Shown: piece after piece, positions 1 through 6,021 of the stretch
How the letters are laid out: every line of letters begins with the position of its first letter
How positions within the stretch are numbered: the stretch's first letter is position 1
Assembly: GCA_015489295.1 (NCBI GenBank)
Contig: WGAB01000179.1
Span: forward strand, 1 to 6,021
Direction: 5' to 3'
From: Caldifarciminota bacterium
GTDB taxonomy: Bacteria > WOR-3 > Hydrothermia > WGAB01
DNA length: 6,021 nucleotides
Translations under genes and position numbers: made by a program
Notes under the pieces: model-generated
What the model was told of the DNA's origin: nothing
What the model saw: only the letters and a program-made list of their open reading frames with translations
Databases searched by the model: none

Positions 1-414
1 CAGTTGTTCCTTGACCCTTTCCGCCAGGTCCTTCACGGTGATCTTCCGCAGTTCGTTGGCGAACACCTCCTGAACATGGTCCCAGGCCAGGCCCAGCGGG
101 CACACGCTGCCGTGGGGGCATTCCTCGGGATACAGGGCGCATCGGTTGAAGTTCAGGGGGCCTTCCACCGCCTCCAGGATGTCCAGGAGGGTGATCTTGG
201 CGGGGTCCACGGCCAGGCGCAGGCCGCCCATCTTGCCGCGCTCGGTCCGCACGAAGCCCTTGGTAGACAGGATGAGCACGATCTTGGGCAGGTAGCTCCG
301 GGGGATCATCTGCCGTTCGGAGATGTCCTTGCTGGAGACCACCTCGTTTTCGCCGTGCATGGCGAGTTCCACCAGGGTGCGCAGGGTATAGTGGGTGGTG
401 CGGGTAATATCCAT
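1..414 (-). CDS. Rrf2-family Fe-S transcriptional regulator (3' end outside window)
   Basis: The start is the ATG at 414-412, preceded by a strong Shine-Dalgarno (AAAGGAGGG, about 422-430). The frame stays open for 138 codons to the window edge, so the C-terminus is missing, though most of a usual 140-165-residue Rrf2 protein is present. Residues 1-70 form the Rrf2 winged helix: TTHYTLRTLVELA, then a recognition region with KDISERQMIPRSYLPKI, then the wing GKMGGLRLA. Three cysteines, C92, C99 and C105 (C-x6-C-x5-C), sit where IscR and NsrR bind their cluster. By family knowledge this is a cytoplasmic DNA-binding sensor of iron-sulfur status, nitric oxide or redox state. Which of these it senses cannot be told from the sequence. 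The genes that might show its regulon lie beyond the left edge. Family call is firm; the signal sensed is unknown. Confidence 0.93.
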   Translation of the reverse strand, partial: MDITRTTHYTLRTLVELAMHGENEVVSSKDISERQMIPRSYLPKIVLILSTKGFVRTERGKMGGLRLAVDPAKITLLDILEAVEGPLNFNRCALYPEECPHGSVCPLGLAWDHVQEVFANELRKITVKDLAERVKEQL

Positions 415-470
415 ATGCTTACCCTCCTTTCCTTCATTTCTGCCTTTAAAAACCCGGCAATGATACCTTG

Positions 471-495
471 CGAAATTATACATGAAATCCTTTCG
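471..495. promoter_or_regulatory. Possible operator: inverted repeat over the Rrf2 promoter
   Basis: CGAAA (471-475) and TTTCG (491-495) form a perfect 5-bp inverted repeat with a 15-base AT-rich spacer that covers the -10 box and most of the -35/-10 spacer. Its size and position fit an autoregulatory Rrf2 site of about 25 bp. The arms are short, so chance is a real alternative. No match to the IscR consensus is claimed. Confidence 0.25.
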
Positions 496-503
496 GGAGT
501 AAA
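475..503 (-). promoter_or_regulatory. Promoter of the Rrf2-family regulator gene
   Basis: Read on the minus strand, a perfect -10 box TATAAT (480-475) lies exactly 17 bases downstream of TTTACT (503-498), which matches four of six -35 consensus positions. The predicted transcript starts near 468, giving a leader of roughly 55 bases before the ATG at 414. Confidence 0.7.
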
Positions 504-776
504 GGGCGGTGGGGAACCCCGGCACGGCACCCCGCAGCAGGGAATCCCGGTAAATCTGCAAAGAGAACAGAGCAGCGGGGGTGCAAAGGGACAGCCCTCG
601 GTTTGCAAGGGGTGTCGGGTGCTGTGCAGCGGCCCTAAGAGTTTCTCGAGCAGGGGTCAGGAAGGGGAAACTGCGAAAGGCGACGTTTGCAGGCAGAGGA
701 GAGGCAGGGCTGTTTGGGAAGGCTGGGGGATCGCCGGGCTCGGAGGGAACACCTTCACCGAGGGTTTTTCAACCGG
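504..776. other. Intergenic region with no gene found
   Basis: This stretch lies between the stop of the nuclease-like gene and the Rrf2 promoter. No reading frame in it has a ribosome binding site and protein-like composition. It contains several short inverted repeats: GGGGAACCCC at 511-520; TGCAAA (582-587) with TTTGCA (602-607) enclosing GGG/CCC (588-590/594-596); and CTCGG (739-743) with CCGAG (758-762). The last lies just past the stop of the nuclease gene but has no T-run on that strand, so it is not a clear intrinsic terminator for it. No tRNA or known RNA was recognised. Confidence 0.5.
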
Positions 777-1796
777 TTATGCCTTTAGCGATTCCAGCCC
801 TTCTAAGAACGTCTGAGCCTCATTCTTGTCCCTGAAAAAGCCATACAACGCCAGAGGACCACCCCTCCACGGTCTTCCCTCGGTGGCACCTGGAGGGAGG
901 ATCTTCAAAATCTCCTCGGTTTCTACACCGAAATACTCGGAAAACCGCTCGACATAAAGCGAATATCGCACGCCTTGCGACGCATCGCTTTCTCCCGGGA
1001 TCAGGCTGAAGATGGTCCTCCGCTTTCCGTCGAGAATACCTATGAAGGCCACCGTGCTGCGCGTTGTCGTTCTGTGGTCAAAGTGCTTTGTCAACTCCTC
1101 GACCAGCCACCGGTACAGTTCGCCTACCCCCTGCTGATCCGCAATCGCTTGCAATTCCTCGTACGTCAGGGGCGGCTTTCTTTTGGAACCCCCTCGCGTT
1201 TGTGACCTGTACTCCACCTCACTGGGTTCAATCAAAAACACTCGTGCCAGAAACTCTCGTCCCGCTTCATCCCTGAAATATTGGAAGGTTACGGCATTGA
1301 TCGCTACTCCATAGGTGTCGGACAGGTACTGGATGATCCTTTCTGTACTGCTGTCCACCCTTGAGGCTACAATGAGGATCTGATGGCGTTCATTCAAAAC
1401 CTCGGGCAGCTCTTCGCCGAAGCGTTGTCTATAGGCATTCTCCAGCGACGTTTGTCCTCCGAAATACCTGGACGAGATTTCCATGATCCTTTCACTGGAC
1501 AATTCCTTGACCCAGGAAGCGTATTCCAGCGCCTGTGCTGTCACCTCCCGCGGAGTTTTATCCCGCTTCAACTCAATGATGACCAGGTTCCCTTCTCGGT
1601 CTATGCACAAGAGGTCTATCACTCCGCCGAAGTCGGTCTCAACCTGGCGGCCGATCACGAGCAGATCATCCGACACAATGGAAATGTCCTGTTCCAGCCA
1701 TTTCTCGATACGCTCTTCCCAGTCCAACCGCGAGCGTTTGATTTCCCTCAGCGAATCTCCTTCTTCAATCGCCCATAATCTTATGTCCTGTGGCAT
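777..1796 (-). CDS. NucS/DUF91-like PD-(D/E)XK nuclease-domain protein
   Basis: This 339-residue protein starts at the ATG 1796-1794, with AGGAGG (1807-1802) five bases upstream. Residues about 45-100 match the nuclease core of NucS/EndoMS: GGVIDLL with D61, VIIELKR with E75 and K77, then Q88 and Y92 in AQALEYASWV. D61, E75 and K77 form the expected D...ExK metal site, and Q88 and Y92 match further conserved positions of that family. NucS/EndoMS cuts mismatched or branched DNA, but there the nuclease domain follows an N-terminal dimerisation domain. Here it comes first, after about 40 residues (DWEERIEKWLEQD), and is followed by some 230 residues I do not recognise, with a basic linker (GGSKRKPP). 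A DNA-cleaving cytoplasmic enzyme is likely; a repair, defence or other role cannot be assigned. Base composition is lower in GC than in the right-hand genes, which hints at transfer. Confidence 0.85.
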   Translation of the reverse strand: MPQDIRLWAIEEGDSLREIKRSRLDWEERIEKWLEQDISIVSDDLLVIGRQVETDFGGVIDLLCIDREGNLVIIELKRDKTPREVTAQALEYASWVKELSSERIMEISSRYFGGQTSLENAYRQRFGEELPEVLNERHQILIVASRVDSSTERIIQYLSDTYGVAINAVTFQYFRDEAGREFLARVFLIEPSEVEYRSQTRGGSKRKPPLTYEELQAIADQQGVGELYRWLVEELTKHFDHRTTTRSTVAFIGILDGKRRTIFSLIPGESDASQGVRYSLYVERFSEYFGVETEEILKILPPGATEGRPWRGGPLALYGFFRDKNEAQTFLEGLESLKA

Positions 1797-1864
1797 TTGA
1801 TCCTCCTATGCATGTACAACCCACTCTCTCACTCCTTCACTGCAGCAGAGTAAGGCACGATCAA

Positions 1865-1870
1865 ATTATA
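1865..1870 (-). promoter_or_regulatory. -10 box of the nuclease-like gene
   Basis: On the minus strand a perfect TATAAT (1870-1865) lies about 70 bases upstream of the ATG at 1796. No good -35 box is seen 16-18 bases upstream (AATGGC at the 17-base position), so an activator or a weak promoter is possible. Predicted start is near 1858, with a leader of about 60 bases. Confidence 0.45.
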
Positions 1871-1920
1871 CCCTCGGCAGGTCATGGGCCATTCCTTCTA
1901 CAAAGAGGTGTTCGCTTACC

Positions 1921-1943
1921 TTCGCCGCTGAAGCGGCTCCTAC
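1921..1943 (-). repeat. REP-like palindromic element (GTAG-headed hairpin)
   Basis: Read on the minus strand from 1943, the element starts with GTAGGA and continues into the hairpin GCCGC-TTCA-GCGGC (1937-1924), followed by GAA. A GTAG tetranucleotide next to a GC-rich hairpin is the hallmark of REP sequences mobilised by TnpA-REP (RAYT) Y1 transposases, and the wording closely resembles REP families of gammaproteobacteria. Only one copy is visible here and no transposase gene is in the window, so copy number in the genome is unknown. Confidence 0.55.
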
Positions 1944-1984
1944 AATTTGGCCCTGTCCGTCTCCCCTTGGGAGGGGACGAACCC

Positions 1985-2015
1985 GTGCCTGGCAACACTG
2001 GGCTGCTGCCAGCAC
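1985..2015. repeat. Imperfect inverted repeat / hairpin in the intergenic region
   Basis: CTGGCA (1989-1994) pairs with TGCCAG (2007-2012), and the stem extends with GTG (1985-1987) and CAC (2013-2015) around a bulged C at 1988. This gives nine base pairs and a 12-base loop. It is not followed by a T-run, so it is not an intrinsic terminator. It lies 26 bases upstream of the -35 box of the right-hand operon. It could be a regulator site, part of a decayed mobile repeat, or chance. Confidence 0.35.
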
Positions 2016-2040
2016 TTTCCCATCTTCCGCCAACCGGGGG

Positions 2041-2069
2041 TTGACAGTTGGGGTGTATCGGTGTACTAT
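2041..2069 (+). promoter_or_regulatory. Promoter of the GntR-ABC-barrel operon
   Basis: A perfect -35 box TTGACA (2041-2046) is followed after exactly 17 bases by TACTAT (2064-2069), four of six matches to the -10 consensus. The predicted start is near 2076, about 97 bases upstream of the regulator's ATG. It reads into all five right-hand genes, and no other promoter or terminator is evident among them. Confidence 0.75.
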
Positions 2070-2082
2070 TCCGGTAGTACAC
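2061..2082. promoter_or_regulatory. Probable GntR (YtrA-type) operator
   Basis: GTGTACTA (2061-2068) and TAGTACAC (2075-2082) form a perfect 8-bp inverted repeat with a 6-base spacer. The site contains nearly the whole -10 box and the predicted start point, so a bound dimer would block RNA polymerase. GntR-family sites are typically spaced palindromes with GT at one end and AC at the other, and the first gene of the operon is a GntR regulator. Autorepression is therefore the simplest reading (inference). Confidence 0.75.
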
Positions 2083-2122
2083 TATGGCGCGGCGAACGGA
2101 AATGCCAAGGAAAACAGCGAAG

Positions 2123-2166
2123 GGGCGGCCCGACAGCCTGCAGGCGGCGGCCGCCGCCCGGGAGGA
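2123..2166 (+). promoter_or_regulatory. GC-rich leader palindromes next to the regulator's ribosome binding site
   Basis: A perfect 16-base palindrome, GGCGGCGG then CCGCCGCC (2143-2158), lies directly before the Shine-Dalgarno GGAGGA (2161-2166). A second perfect palindrome, GCCTGCAGGC, overlaps its left edge (2136-2145). GGGCGGC (2123-2129) can instead pair with GCCGCCC (2153-2159). These pairings cannot all form together, so the leader can adopt alternative folds close to the ribosome binding site. No known riboswitch was recognised. Confidence 0.4.
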
Positions 2167-2172
2167 AAGCCC

Positions 2173-2550
2173 ATGGGCCTGAGGTTTGACCCCACCCGGC
2201 CGATTTACCTGCAGATCATGGAGTGGATCAAACGCCAGGCGGTACGGGGTGTGCTCAGGCCCGGCGACCGGGTGCCCTCCGTGCGCGACCTGGCCCGGGA
2301 ACTGCAGGTGAACCCCAATACCGTGGCCCGGGCGTACCGGGAACTGGAACGGGAGGGGTTCCTGTTCACCCTCCGGGGCCAGGGCACCTTCATCACCCGC
2401 GACGCCGCCCGCCTGGCCCGGGAACGGCAACGGCTCCTGGAACAGGCGGTGCAGCACTTTCTGGAGGACCTTCGGGAACTTCAACCCTCGCCGGAGGAGG
2501 CCGAGCAGCTCATGGAAATCCTGAGGAGGCAACTTCATGACGATCGTTGA
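2173..2550 (+). CDS. GntR-family transcriptional regulator, YtrA type
   Basis: This is a 125-residue DNA-binding repressor, first gene of the operon. I chose the ATG at 2173 because GGAGGA (2161-2166) precedes it by six bases and the encoded MGLRFDPTRPIYLQIMEWI is the normal beginning of the family; the same frame stays open upstream into the promoter, but that part is not protein-like. Residues 10-75 form the winged helix: PIYLQI, GVLRPGDRVPSVRDLA, the recognition stretch VNPNTVARAYRELEREG (46-62) and the wing RGQGTFI (68-74). Only about 50 residues follow, predicted helical and charged. This short C-terminus without a large ligand domain defines the YtrA subfamily, whose members commonly control adjacent ABC transporter genes in response to envelope-active compounds. 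It overlaps the ATPase gene by 14 bases. The ligand is unknown. Confidence 0.93.
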   Translation: MGLRFDPTRPIYLQIMEWIKRQAVRGVLRPGDRVPSVRDLARELQVNPNTVARAYRELEREGFLFTLRGQGTFITRDAARLARERQRLLEQAVQHFLEDLRELQPSPEEAEQLMEILRRQLHDDR

Positions 2551-3235
2551 AGTGCAGGACCTTTGGAAACAGTACCCCGGCAGCACCGCGCTCCGGGGGG
2601 TTTCCCTGCAGGTGCCCCGCGGGGTGGTGCTGGGCGTGCTGGGGGAAAACGGCAGCGGCAAAAGCACCCTGCTGCGGATCCTTGCCGGCGTGAGCCGGCC
2701 CAGCCGGGGCACGGTCCGGGTGCTGGGCCGGGACCCCCGGGAGGCCGCCGTGCGCCGGCACATCGCCTTCCTGCCCGAGGTCACACCCTACGATCCCTGG
2801 ATGCGGGTCCGCGGCCTGCTGGACTTCCTGCAGCCCTTCTATCCGGGCTGGGATCCCCAAAAGGCCCGGATGCTCCTGGAGGCCCTGCAGCTGGACCCGG
2901 ACCGGCGGATCGGCGAACTCTCCAAGGGCCAGCAGGCCCGGCTCAAACTGGCCACCGCCTTCGCCTGGCCCAGCGACCTGGTGCTCCTGGACGAACCCCT
3001 CGGGGGCATTGACCCGCCGTCCCGCCACCGCATCCTGCACACGCTGTTTTCCGAGTTCCGGTACGGCGAGCAAACCATCGTGCTGTCCACCCACCTGGTA
3101 CAGGAGGTGGAAGAGTTCCTGGAAACCGTGGTGTTCCTGCACCACGGCGAGGTGGCCCTCCAGGGCTCGGCCGACGACCTGCGCGCCCGAACCGGCAAAT
3201 CACTCTTGGAACTCTTTGAGGAGGTGGTGGCATGA
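2537..3235 (+). CDS. ABC transporter ATP-binding protein
   Basis: This 232-residue protein is the cytoplasmic motor of an ABC exporter-type system, pairing with the permease encoded next. GAGGAGG (2523-2529) lies seven bases before the ATG. All motifs are present: Walker A GENGSGKST (36-44), signature LSKGQQARLKLA (128-139), Walker B LVLLDE (148-153 with E153 as catalytic base), D-loop GGID (156-159) and switch histidine H186. The Q-loop position reads FLPE (78-81), with glutamate in place of glutamine, a substitution also common in the YtrB/BcrA/NatA-like group. Length is typical of that group, with no large C-terminal regulatory domain. Its stop overlaps the permease start as ATGA. Activity is expected to be intact; the substrate is not readable from the sequence. 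Confidence 0.96.
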   Translation: MTIVEVQDLWKQYPGSTALRGVSLQVPRGVVLGVLGENGSGKSTLLRILAGVSRPSRGTVRVLGRDPREAAVRRHIAFLPEVTPYDPWMRVRGLLDFLQPFYPGWDPQKARMLLEALQLDPDRRIGELSKGQQARLKLATAFAWPSDLVLLDEPLGGIDPPSRHRILHTLFSEFRYGEQTIVLSTHLVQEVEEFLETVVFLHHGEVALQGSADDLRARTGKSLLELFEEVVA

Positions 3236-3951
3236 AGACCCTGTGGGCGTTGCTTCGCCGGGAGATTCGGGCCCATCAACTCGCCTTCGGCGCGTACTTC
3301 GCCCTCACCCTGCTGCTGGACGCCTTTGCGGTGCTCACGGCTCCGGAGAACCCCGAGCGCTTCGGCCTCACAATGCTTCCCTTAGTGGGCCTGCTCTTTT
3401 TCGCGCCGCTCCTTCTGGTGCATGCCTTTGCGTCGGAACGCCGGAACCATCAGGTGTACCTGCTGTTCGCCCTGCCGGTGGCCCGCTGGCAGGTGGCCCT
3501 GGTCCGCGTGATCGCCAACCTGGTGCACACCCTGGGCATCCTGGTGGTGGGCCTGGGAGGCGCCCTGTGGGCGTACCAGCGGGGCCTGGCCTCCGAGGTG
3601 CAGGTCAGCGGCTCGTTGGCCCTGCTCCTGGCCCTGGGAATCCTGGCGTACCTCGTGCTCCTGTACGGCCTTGTGCTCGGGATGGAAACGCTGCGCTCGG
3701 TGCCCCTGCGCGGCCGGTCGCTCTGGGGGGCGGCCAGTGCCCTGCTGGGGTTCTACCTGGCCCTCCGGGGCGCGGCCCACGGCCTGTACCGGGTGCTGCC
3801 GGCCCTGAGCCTGGATTTCACCTTCGTGGATGCCACCGGGCGCGTGTTCCAGAAAACCGCCAATCTGCAGCCGTTGGAGTTCGCCGTAGTTTTCGGCCTC
3901 CTCTGGGGGGCGCTGGCCCTCTGGGGGTTCCATCGTTTTGCGGAGGTGTGA
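3232..3951 (+). CDS. ABC-2-type permease subunit
   Basis: This 239-residue inner-membrane protein starts at the ATG overlapping the ATPase stop, with GAGGAGG (3218-3224) seven bases upstream. Hydrophobic segments fit six helices at about 17-36, 46-67, 88-113, 127-150, 164-182 and 215-236. The cytoplasmic loop after helix 2 has SERRNHQVYLLFALPVARWQ (68-87), matching the family pattern of an acidic/basic coupling region before 'LPVSR'. One permease gene and one ATPase gene suggest a homodimeric permease with two ATPases. Such transporters move antibiotics, lipids or peptides, or act as envelope-stress modules. The loop between helices 5 and 6 (183-214) is longer and more polar than the others and may face the periplasm. 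Substrate unknown. Confidence 0.88.
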   Translation: MKTLWALLRREIRAHQLAFGAYFALTLLLDAFAVLTAPENPERFGLTMLPLVGLLFFAPLLLVHAFASERRNHQVYLLFALPVARWQVALVRVIANLVHTLGILVVGLGGALWAYQRGLASEVQVSGSLALLLALGILAYLVLLYGLVLGMETLRSVPLRGRSLWGAASALLGFYLALRGAAHGLYRVLPALSLDFTFVDATGRVFQKTANLQPLEFAVVFGLLWGALALWGFHRFAEV

Positions 3952-3954
3952 GCC

Positions 3955-5712
3955 ATGCCCCTTTCTTTGCCCTGGGTTTTTGGGGTGTTTTCCCTGGTGA
4001 TCACAAGCACCAGCGGGGATGTGCGGGTTACCGTGGTGCCGCCGAACCCTGCGCTGGCCGTCACCGGCCCCGTGGTGCTCACGACCGAGGATACCTCGCT
4101 TTTGGTGCCCGCCGATGAGCCCCTCACGGTGCAAACGGTCTCAGGCGACCTGGTGCTGGATGCCCAAACCGATTCGGCCGCGCCGATCCGTTTGAACACC
4201 GTATCGGGCGACCTGCGCGTTCTCCACGCCCCGGCCTGTTCCCTGAGGGTCCACACGGTTTCCGGCGACATCCGTTTTGAGGGCGATCCCGCCCGCAGGG
4301 GTTCCGGTTTTTACCACGTGAGCACGGTTTCCGGCAGTGTCAAGGGGGCGGTGCCGCCGGTGCCGGGCCGGTACCGGGTGGCCTCCGGCACCCTGGACCT
4401 CCGGTTCCCCTATGAGCCCGACACCCTGGTGATGGAAACCCTGGTGGTGCACTTCGGCCGCCTGCGGGTCAGCGTCCAGGGAATCCCGCTGGAGCCCGAC
4501 ACCCCGGGGGTCTATCGCCACGGCCGGTACCGCCTGGTGATCCGGCCTTCCCTGGTGCGGGGCCGGAGAGGGCAGGAGATCTGGCCTCCGTCCATGCCCG
4601 GTTGGGGGGAGGGGTGGCTGCAGCCTCCCCAGGGCGAGGAGGAGCCCGAAGAGGAAGAAGCCCGAGGGGCCGGGCGGCCCCTGCCCCGCCGGGTGCTCGC
4701 CCTGATGCCCGTGCATCCCGGCGGCTCCTCCGGCTGGGTGGACTACAACCGGGTGAATGGCTTTACGCTCCGGTTCCCGGTGGTGTCCCACCAGTCCGAT
4801 TGGGGCCTGGGGAGCCTGAGCCTCGGGAGCCGGGCCCGCTTTGAGGTCTCGGCGGCCTTCGGGCGCCGGATCCCCGGCGAGCCCAACCGGTGGAAACGGC
4901 GCCTCGGCTACTGGGCCGAGGCCGAGGTGGGCGGCCGGCCCCAGGGCCTGCCCGGCGCCTTTTTGTGGGGCCAGGCCTGGCTGCACCGCACCGCCTCGCT
5001 GAACCGCTGGACCCTCCGGCCCTGCGAGAACTTCCTGGGCAGCGTGCTTTTCAAGATGGACGCCTACGACTACTACCTGTCGTCGGGGGTGGCCGGCGGC
5101 CTGGGCCTCCGGTGGCGCCGGCACCTGTGGCTGCGGGTCGGGCTCCGCAACGAAACCGTGGATTCCTTGCCCGTGACCCAGGAGTTCTCCGTGTTCCATT
5201 CGGAGGCGGCCTTCCGGGGCAATCCGGCCACACCCCATTACGACCTCCAGGGCACAGAACTGGCTGCCGAGGTGCGCTGGCGCGGCCTCAGCCTGGCCGC
5301 CTGGGGGTTCCGCAGCCTGGATTCCACGGACCGCTATCTGTGGCAGGCCCTGTTCCGCTGGCATCAGCCCCTGGCGTTCGGCGACCTGCGGTTCCGGGCG
5401 GCCACAGGTGCCACCGCCTTCCAGCCGCCCTCGCCGCTTGCGGCTTACCTGGGCGGCCTCGGCACCCTGCCCGGCTACGACTTCCATGCAGATTCGGGCA
5501 GCCGCTTCCTTTTGGTCAACGGAGAGGTGTCGCTGGAAGGCCCCGGCCCCAACCTGCTGCTCTTCGGCGACGCCGGCCGCATTTCAGGACACGACTGGCT
5601 GGCGGACGTCGGCCTCGGCCTCGGCCTGGGGCCCCTGGCCCTGCGCCTGGTGGTGCCCCTGGATCGGCCCCGGGCGTACCGGATCCTTTTCCGGTTTCAG
5701 GAGTGGTTCTGA
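3955..5712 (+). CDS. DUF4097-like beta-helix fused to Omp85-like outer-membrane barrel
   Basis: This 585-residue protein begins three bases after the permease stop, with GGAGGTG (3942-3948) six bases upstream. A short hydrophobic start (PLSLPWVFGVFSLVI, 2-16) may serve for export but lacks the usual basic residues. Residues 17-150 carry repeats spaced about 20 residues apart: TSGD (19-22), TVSGD at 61-65, 82-86 and 101-105, TVSGS at 124-128. These are the turns of a DUF4097/LiaG-like beta-helix. An acidic linker (EEEPEEEE, 228-235) leads to residues 263-585, which read like an Omp85 barrel: YNRVNGF (264-270) at the first strand, LPGY (505-508) at the loop-6 position, FGDAG (537-541) matching the FxDxG motif, amphipathic strands, and a terminal phenylalanine (FQEWF). 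No POTRA domain is seen. It is probably an outer-membrane protein with a periplasmic beta-helix. Function is unknown; the DUF4097 call is firmer than the Omp85 call. Confidence 0.78.
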   Translation: MPLSLPWVFGVFSLVITSTSGDVRVTVVPPNPALAVTGPVVLTTEDTSLLVPADEPLTVQTVSGDLVLDAQTDSAAPIRLNTVSGDLRVLHAPACSLRVHTVSGDIRFEGDPARRGSGFYHVSTVSGSVKGAVPPVPGRYRVASGTLDLRFPYEPDTLVMETLVVHFGRLRVSVQGIPLEPDTPGVYRHGRYRLVIRPSLVRGRRGQEIWPPSMPGWGEGWLQPPQGEEEPEEEEARGAGRPLPRRVLALMPVHPGGSSGWVDYNRVNGFTLRFPVVSHQSDWGLGSLSLGSRARFEVSAAFGRRIPGEPNRWKRRLGYWAEAEVGGRPQGLPGAFLWGQAWLHRTASLNRWTLRPCENFLGSVLFKMDAYDYYLSSGVAGGLGLRWRRHLWLRVGLRNETVDSLPVTQEFSVFHSEAAFRGNPATPHYDLQGTELAAEVRWRGLSLAAWGFRSLDSTDRYLWQALFRWHQPLAFGDLRFRAATGATAFQPPSPLAAYLGGLGTLPGYDFHADSGSRFLLVNGEVSLEGPGPNLLLFGDAGRISGHDWLADVGLGLGLGPLALRLVVPLDRPRAYRILFRFQEWF

Positions 5713-5714
5713 CC

Positions 5715-6021
5715 ATGTGGTGGCTGCTCTGGTCCCTCTGGGGAGCCCTACCGGCGCATCCGGCACCGGAAACCGCCTCCTGGCTTCGCCTGGAGGCCCG
5801 GCTCAAGGGGGTGGTGTGCATCCTGGAGGCCGGCCCGCGCCTGGAGGTGCTGGGGGATACCCTTCATGCCGTGGTCCGGGGCGATACCCTGGTGGTCACC
5901 CTGCACCATCGGGTGGGCACCTGGCTCGCCCGGTGGGGCTGGGCTCCGGACACCGTGGTGGTGCGGTTGCCCGAGGCCCTGCCCGCCGAGATCCGGGTGG
6001 ACCACCGGGGAGGCCTGCTGG
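5715..6021 (+). CDS. Putative exported DUF4097-like protein (3' end outside window)
   Basis: The ATG at 5715 lies two bases after the preceding stop; AGGAG (5699-5703) is 11 bases upstream, a long spacing that suggests translational coupling. The frame is open for 102 codons to the window edge. Residues 1-15 (MWWLLWSLWGALPAH) form a tryptophan-rich hydrophobic segment that could be a signal peptide or anchor, again without a basic residue. The rest is beta-rich: LEVLGDTLHAVVRGDTLVVTL, then TVVVRLPEALPAEIRVDHRGG (about 78-100). Two 'GDTL' strands followed by a 'VRLP...IRVDHRGG' approach resemble the beginning of DUF4097 domains, where the SGD turns would follow beyond the edge. It probably works with the fusion protein before it. 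The family call is tentative because the diagnostic part is missing. Confidence 0.6.
   Translation, partial: MWWLLWSLWGALPAHPAPETASWLRLEARLKGVVCILEAGPRLEVLGDTLHAVVRGDTLVVTLHHRVGTWLARWGWAPDTVVVRLPEALPAEIRVDHRGGLL

Follow-up and report, generated by a model that had tools for sequence, protein, structure and literature searches.

What does an envelope-stress domain do in front of an outer-membrane β-barrel? The question is raised by a 6,021-nucleotide stretch of DNA from a Caldifarciminota bacterium (contig WGAB01000179.1 of assembly GCA_015489295.1, positions 1 to 6,021 of the forward strand; hereafter the window), which encodes a 585-residue protein, P0001, that joins a DUF4097 or 'Toastrack' β-helix to a predicted Omp85-type barrel. 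One to seven POTRA domains are common to Omp85 proteins (PMC13067283, a 2026 review of BAM), and P0001 carries the Toastrack domain in their place. We favor, with a probability of about one half, the reading that this fusion is the outer-membrane component of an envelope-stress operon of the Lia/PSP/Ytr type, with its Toastrack mounted on a POTRA-less barrel of the Omp85 superfamily. The gene, which has an ATG start and GGAGG upstream, and the parts of its product are as follows.

3955..5712, + strand: Toastrack-Omp85 fusion protein P0001, 585 aa (open reading frame (ORF), Pfam, structure model).
3994..4545, + strand: Toastrack (DUF4097) β-helix, residues ~14-197 (Pfam match to 14-110, SGD turns, and predicted local distance difference test, pLDDT).
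4549..4731, + strand: Pro/Gly-rich linker with an acidic stretch, residues 199-259 (pLDDT <50, composition).
4735..5709, + strand: predicted 16-stranded Omp85-type barrel, residues 261-585 (model, fold and profile comparison).
5470..5481, + strand: LPGY, in the loop joining predicted strand 11 to strand 12, the place of (V/I)RG(Y/F), with Pro where the motif has Arg.
5563..5577, + strand: FGDAG on predicted strand 13, the (F/G)xDxG motif, kept (model and motif reading).

The N-terminal assignment, which a first-pass annotation had based on TVSGD-type turns, was borne out. Toastrack-type turns, five in all, occur at residues 18, 61, 82, 101 and 124; when residues 14-200 were shuffled 20,000 times, five turns never arose (shuffle mean 0.04), and a chance origin of the SGD repeats was rejected on this ground. 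Pfam DUF4097 (PF13349) scores 25.7 bits on residues 14-110, against a gathering cut-off of 22.9, and is matched at E<=0.01 by all 17 members of an alignment of full-length fusions (A2). The Toastrack fold is a right-handed, single-stranded β-helix whose N-terminal region has seven strands; residues 51-180 are predicted to form repeating strands, with pLDDT 80-93, in the second, full-length structure model described below, whose fold search was taken up by barrel matches, and a PDB sequence search with the Toastrack part returned nothing meaningful. The accompanying label 'LiaG-like' stands at the level of the domain and falls for LiaG proper, as the NCBIfam LiaG equivalog NF049997 has a cut-off of 285 bits and scores only 13.5 here.

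The sequence marks on which a C-terminal barrel had been proposed are likewise present in P0001, with YNRVNGF at residues 264-270, LPGY at 506-509, FGDAG at 537-541 and a terminal F585. A first structure model, made from five WOR-3 rows, was weak (pLDDT 60.6; predicted template modelling score, pTM, 0.43), and its Foldseek matches had BamA on top and TamA, CdiB, TOC and SAM among the best 50. The second model, made from 13 rows (pLDDT 70.3, pTM 0.47), has 16 strands beyond residue 260, and the best 50 fold matches listed for it are all BAM/BamA, TamA, SAM or TOC, with chain identity within complexes taken from entry titles. Profile comparison led to recognized Omp85 barrels through intermediates, and the control fails; PDB sequence searches with profiles A1 and A3 gave no match. 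No POTRA model of Pfam matches P0001 or, at E<=0.01, any of the 17 fusions. DUF5686 (PF18939), which has no Pfam match in P0001, is matched by six of the 17 fusions at the same threshold, one of them (L004) above the cut-off (41.5 vs 39.2). The C-terminal part is thus predicted to form a 16-stranded barrel of Omp85-type fold, and the first-pass proposal of a DUF4097 β-helix joined to such a barrel without POTRA domains is supported by Pfam, two structure predictions, and fold and profile comparison.

Where this barrel departs from its relatives is at the lid lock, the conserved salt bridge between the L6 Arg of (V/I)RG(Y/F) and the strand-13 Asp of (F/G)xDxG that is described for insertases and translocases (PMC4490367). 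In the fusions the first motif lies in the right place, loop L6, and Pro takes the place of its Arg in 17 of 17, whereas Arg is found in all eight POTRA-bearing Omp85 proteins of the same class (L045, L047, L048, L050, L051, L053, L054, L055; class, family and phylum are given throughout relative to genome G001, the nearest genome in the sample). Those eight have POTRA and Omp85 matches both above Pfam cut-offs and come from 12 other same-class Omp85 proteins that were fetched; the remaining four (L044, L046, L049, L052) have Arg too, as read by eye in all of these proteins and in some relatives that escaped the motif pattern. The Asp of (F/G)xDxG is kept in 13 of the 17 fusions and is Tyr in four, all of genus g29. 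Among 16 further barrel relatives (L069-L084), the Arg position holds Arg in 12, His in two and Pro in two. The fusion therefore resembles BamA, TamA, Sam50 and Toc75 in its predicted 16-stranded C-terminal barrel, its motif loop between strands 11 and 12 and its (F/G)xDxG on strand 13, but differs from them in its Toastrack N-terminus, in that POTRA was not found, and in its Pro; because of this Pro, the P0001 barrel is described as a diverged Omp85-type barrel and not as a lid-locked member.

Proteins with the same two-domain order, which the first-pass annotation had proposed to look for, were found, and 17 full-length members were aligned; alignment A2 leaves out one fusion (P0138) and two partial fusions (L008, L020). 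The closest named relative, on contig JALXEF010000097.1 of a metagenome-assembled genome of WOR-3 (a candidate division placed under Caldifarciminota in the NCBI taxonomy), is 95% identical across all 585 residues, and three further proteins keep the whole architecture at 51-53% identity over 98-99% of the query. Because the + strand protein is conserved in three relatives, at 51-57% identity, antisense ORFs over the fusion gene (e.g. 4141-5487, - strand) were rejected as GC-rich shadow frames. A five-sequence profile run against genomes of the phylum brought up more divergent fusions, with some match in 38 of 147, many of them to the Toastrack only. Among 390 genomes, relatives of G001 from the same and other phyla, 13 had matches to both halves together; all 13 belong to the class of G001, where they represent five families, and two more genomes (G019, G024) have part of a fusion at contig ends. 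When proteins were searched with the profile of the whole fusion, most of the listed matches (120 of 203) were DUF4097 proteins standing alone. The search was therefore made with a profile restricted to the barrel (11 proteins), and scores were computed only for the 7,996 candidates with the most shared words. Neither that search nor the 390 genomes contained a Toastrack fusion beyond the class of G001, which is no proof of absence.

The barrel itself reaches further, and its relatives bear on what may stand in the POTRA place. In a tree of 40 barrels, the 18 Toastrack rows make up one side of a branch with support 96/95 that recurs in 98% of 200 bootstrap trees; three rows of this tree are long (L084, P0141, P0142) and nine, P0001 included, deviate in composition. 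Fourteen barrel loci of other phyla were fetched, from the best 30 places only, and 12 of them pass the Pfam Omp85 cut-off. A bactofilin-like solenoid lies directly 5' of the barrel in eight (L069, L072, L074, L078, L081-L084), six of them with Pfam Bactofilin under cut-off and two (L069, L081) labelled by eye. Bactofilin passes its cut-off only in L010 (28.3 vs 27.9), and the label used in the tree is partly by eye; the Pfam scan of ten relatives gave six sub-cut-off matches and no match in L069, L070 and L081. Before the barrel, L070 has a short stretch of bactofilin look and L071, L075 and L079 have no recognizable N-terminal domain; at the N-terminus of L080 a glycogen-binding AMPK1_CBM model matches under cut-off (19.5 vs 26.8), and L077 looks alike by eye only.

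Two other barrel relatives, P0143 and P0144, have POTRA domains, and in L010 and L015 a bactofilin-like solenoid is followed by POTRA and then by a barrel of the same lineage, an order that is a bridge between the solenoid and POTRA architectures. With relatives that have POTRA, solenoid plus POTRA, solenoid alone or Toastrack, the anatomy supports the idea of a β-helix in place of POTRA; that such an arrangement was unfamiliar because it is unique was rejected, as bactofilin-like solenoids hold that position in barrel relatives from other phyla. Since solenoids precede the barrel in those relatives too, replacement of POTRA by a β-solenoid appears to be a broader tendency among these barrels, of which the Toastrack would be one version. 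The solenoid proteins (the eight loci and P0139) share with the fusion a β-solenoid-like N-terminus directly before a homologous barrel and differ from it in that their solenoid is bactofilin-like, under the Pfam cut-off or by eye, and in that seven of the nine keep the Arg. As a combination, a bactofilin-like solenoid with an Omp85-type barrel and no recognized POTRA occurs in several other phyla, and no family name was found for it. Within the class itself, L046 and L049 (genomes G001 and G056) combine a WD40-like (PD40) propeller with an Omp85 barrel, and their N-terminus matches a peptidase-MA-like model under cut-off.

The genes around the fusion suggest a link to envelope stress. Those in the window, together with their control region, are listed here.

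2041..2069, + strand: promoter-like TTGACA-N17-TACTAT, whose -10 overlaps the operator (read by eye; similar layout 5' of GntR in other WOR-3 loci).
2060..2083, + strand: YtrA-like operator palindrome GGTGTACTA-N6-TAGTACACT (pattern match and likeness to the Bacillus subtilis YtrA site).
2173..2550, + strand: GntR-family (YtrA/PmtR-like) repressor (Pfam GntR, 58 bits).
2537..3235, + strand: ATP-binding cassette (ABC) transporter ATPase (Pfam ABC_tran, 96.6 bits; 14-nt overlap with GntR).
3232..3951, + strand: ABC-2-type permease, weak family match (Pfam ABC2_membrane_3, E=0.004, under cut-off).
5715..6021, + strand: ORF2, start of a predicted secreted protein that runs past the window end (ORF, neighborhood comparison).

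From GntR through ATPase, permease and fusion to ORF2, the intergenic gaps are -14, -4, +3 and +2 nt. The GntR start at 2173 was picked from the alignment to relatives; the TTG start at 2041 in the ORF list falls inside the promoter. The permease has six transmembrane-like windows and overlaps the ATPase gene by 4 nt; by tblastn it matched only that of L032, and the other permeases are linked to each other by BLAST. Of 12 loci fetched for their fusion, 10 have GntR and ATPase genes upstream of it and a permease-like gene that separates the ATPase gene from the fusion; L036 and L042 end inside the permease. Between permease and fusion, L041 (2108-2992) and L043 (3019-3897) have an extra DUF4097 gene (Pfam) and L042 (2042-3016) an extra gene without a Pfam match, all three lipoprotein-like by eye. 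In family f17 the fusion is followed by PspC and LiaI/LiaF-type genes, identified by Pfam in L036, L037 and L038 and by eye in L039 and L040. Genes placed like ORF2 come after the fusion in relatives (by eye), and the counterparts in L035 and L037, the two scanned, have no Pfam match. In L002 a 290-residue secreted-looking protein without a Pfam match (10084-10956) and a DUF5916 protein (10814-12913) are encoded downstream of the fusion, which in L036 is followed by a DUF5916+CBM9 gene. Elsewhere in the window, a NucS_C-domain protein (777-1796, - strand; Pfam 25.0 bits vs cut-off 24) is adjoined by an Rrf2 regulator (1-411, - strand).

The palindrome AGTGTA-N12-(T/G)ACACT, its outermost base left free, precedes GntR in the window, in L002 and in nine of ten loci with GntR (L033-L035, L037-L041, L043), with a spacer of 12, behind a TTGAC-type -35 and overlapping the likely -10; L032 has a shorter form outside the pattern. 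In the control, seven matches were observed against 0.26 expected (mononucleotide shuffles, + strand only), and one listed match (L043, 3064-3087) lies away from GntR. YtrA of B. subtilis binds AGTGTA-13bp-TACACT (PMC8060467), so that the window palindrome has the same half-sites, with a spacer of 12 rather than 13 and small departures, and the Ytr operon responds to inhibitors of the lipid II cycle (PMC12772383). Like ytrGABCDEF, the window operon has the YtrA-type layout, with a helix-turn-helix GntR repressor and ABC transporter genes downstream; it differs in its Toastrack-barrel protein, in that a YtrF-like protein was not recognized, and in belonging to a cell envelope of another kind. 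Operons that join GntR, ABC and Toastrack genes have been reported, and Toastrack has been proposed as a scaffold of sub-membrane complexes (PMC11237479). The fusion resembles the Lia/PSP Toastrack proteins LiaG and LiaF described there in its DUF4097 domain and its association with GntR, ABC ATPase and permease genes, a likeness extended by the PspC and LiaF genes that adjoin it in one WOR-3 family.

The domain architecture, the operator-like palindrome and the conserved gene order are observed, the barrel fold is predicted, and how these parts work together is inferred. In the favored stress-operon reading, envelope stress would free the YtrA-like operator from the GntR repressor, and the ABC transporter and the fusion would be produced together. 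The barrel would lie in the outer membrane and the Toastrack in the periplasm, joined by the flexible linker of ~60 residues, so that the flat β-sheets of the Toastrack could dock inner-membrane partners and couple both membranes. Candidate partners are the permease, LiaF/PspC-type Toastrack proteins or the small secreted product of ORF2; that the fusion and its LiaF-like and lipoprotein-like neighbors share the Toastrack suggests a Toastrack-Toastrack contact. Lacking the lid-lock Arg, the barrel may have been reused as an anchor or gate and not as an ordinary insertase of outer-membrane proteins.

Several results weigh against this reading. The Toastrack of LiaG and LiaF, predicted to be intracellular, tends to follow inner-membrane transmembrane domains (PMC11237479), whereas that of the fusion precedes a predicted outer-membrane barrel, and the N-terminus of the fusion, though signal-peptide-like, has no basic residue. 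Because no Pfam model, Omp85 included, matches the C-terminal half of P0001, the identity of the barrel rests on structure prediction and on relatives; nor does Pfam Omp85 match any of the 17 fusions at E<=0.01. BtuB, a barrel that does not belong to Omp85, appeared four times among the Foldseek matches of the first model (ranks 4, 37, 44 and 47), and the alignment behind the second included Omp85-annotated rows. Confidence in the second model is moderate (pTM 0.47), and it does not fix the placement of Toastrack relative to barrel. Profile likeness to the same-class POTRA-bearing Omp85 proteins extends over no more than 67 conserved columns at the C-terminus (Prob 69, E 4e-5), and that to L045 alone is weak (Prob 6.7).

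The fusion could instead be a dedicated BamA/TamA-like factor, either for secretion or, as the first-pass annotation had suggested, for outer-membrane assembly, with the Toastrack replacing POTRA as a docking arm, perhaps for DUF5916 or neighboring secreted proteins. The modelled fold fits this, Omp85 proteins generally insert or translocate proteins and include non-POTRA subfamilies (PMC4104836), and DUF5916 genes (Pfam above cut-off) lie near the fusion in L036 and L002. Against it stand the loss of the lid-lock Arg and the other Omp85 proteins present in all seven genomes searched, which together speak against a general insertase, and the operon context of envelope stress and transport (YtrA, ABC, PspC and LiaF-like genes), so this explanation is possible but doubtful. 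Constant linkage to ABC ATPase and permease genes also allows an outer-membrane exit for the adjacent exporter, the barrel serving as duct and the Toastrack as periplasmic adaptor for expelling membrane-active peptides or lipids in a Pmt- or efflux-like manner, and the window GntR and ATPase do score on the NCBIfam models of phenol-soluble modulin export, PmtR (79 bits, cut-off 200) and PmtA (130 bits), both under cut-off. Such an exit is nevertheless unlikely, as the permease is weakly assigned, a periplasmic adaptor of known kind was not recognized, and Omp85 barrels are mostly plugged and narrow. Least probable is a surface adhesin or receptor whose barrel exposes the Toastrack on the cell surface in autotransporter fashion: one of 17 fusions weakly matches Pfam DUF2807, 'putative auto-transporter adhesin' (E 0.003), but the listed neighborhoods contain no recognized adhesion gene and the Omp85 protein PlpD keeps its N-terminal patatin domain periplasmic (PMC11116518).

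The stress-operon reading can be carried further, to a rather speculative form in which a stress module spans both membranes: a lid-lock-less Omp85 barrel with Toastrack would meet a Lia/PSP-like part in the inner membrane (PspC, LiaF-Toastrack and the ABC transporter), Toastrack-Toastrack contact across the periplasm would report or relieve outer-membrane stress, and the barrel would belong to a wider, unnamed Omp85 lineage that has swapped POTRA for β-solenoids. As far as literature searches reach, the Toastrack-Omp85 fusion is a new architecture. A survey of ten Omp85 subfamilies has a section that lists WD40, metallo, patatin and no-N-terminus types and, in that section, no Toastrack or β-helix type; WD40-Omp85, metallo-Omp85 and noNterm proteins thus share with the fusion an Omp85 barrel with a non-POTRA or no N-terminal domain, and the fusion differs in that this domain is a Toastrack (PMC4104836). 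In searches whose scope excluded most subscription journals and bioRxiv, neither DUF4097 nor bactofilin was found together with Omp85, and DUF5686 was not mentioned.

POTRA domains are regarded as all but defining of the Omp85 family, and the Arg-Asp lid lock as shared by insertases and translocases. Here, a conserved, deeply diverged lineage without recognizable POTRA or lid-lock Arg has an envelope-stress domain in the POTRA place, and recruitment of an Omp85 barrel to another function can be tested on it. In the fusion the Toastrack would also be extracytoplasmic, at odds with the published prediction; the main text of that paper does not contain the term 'outer membrane' (PMC11237479). The fusion offers an outer-membrane partner for Lia/PSP/Ytr-type systems. 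These are best known from single-membrane bacteria, and the presence of the fusion inside a stress-type operon of WOR-3 suggests that systems of this type can extend to the outer membrane.
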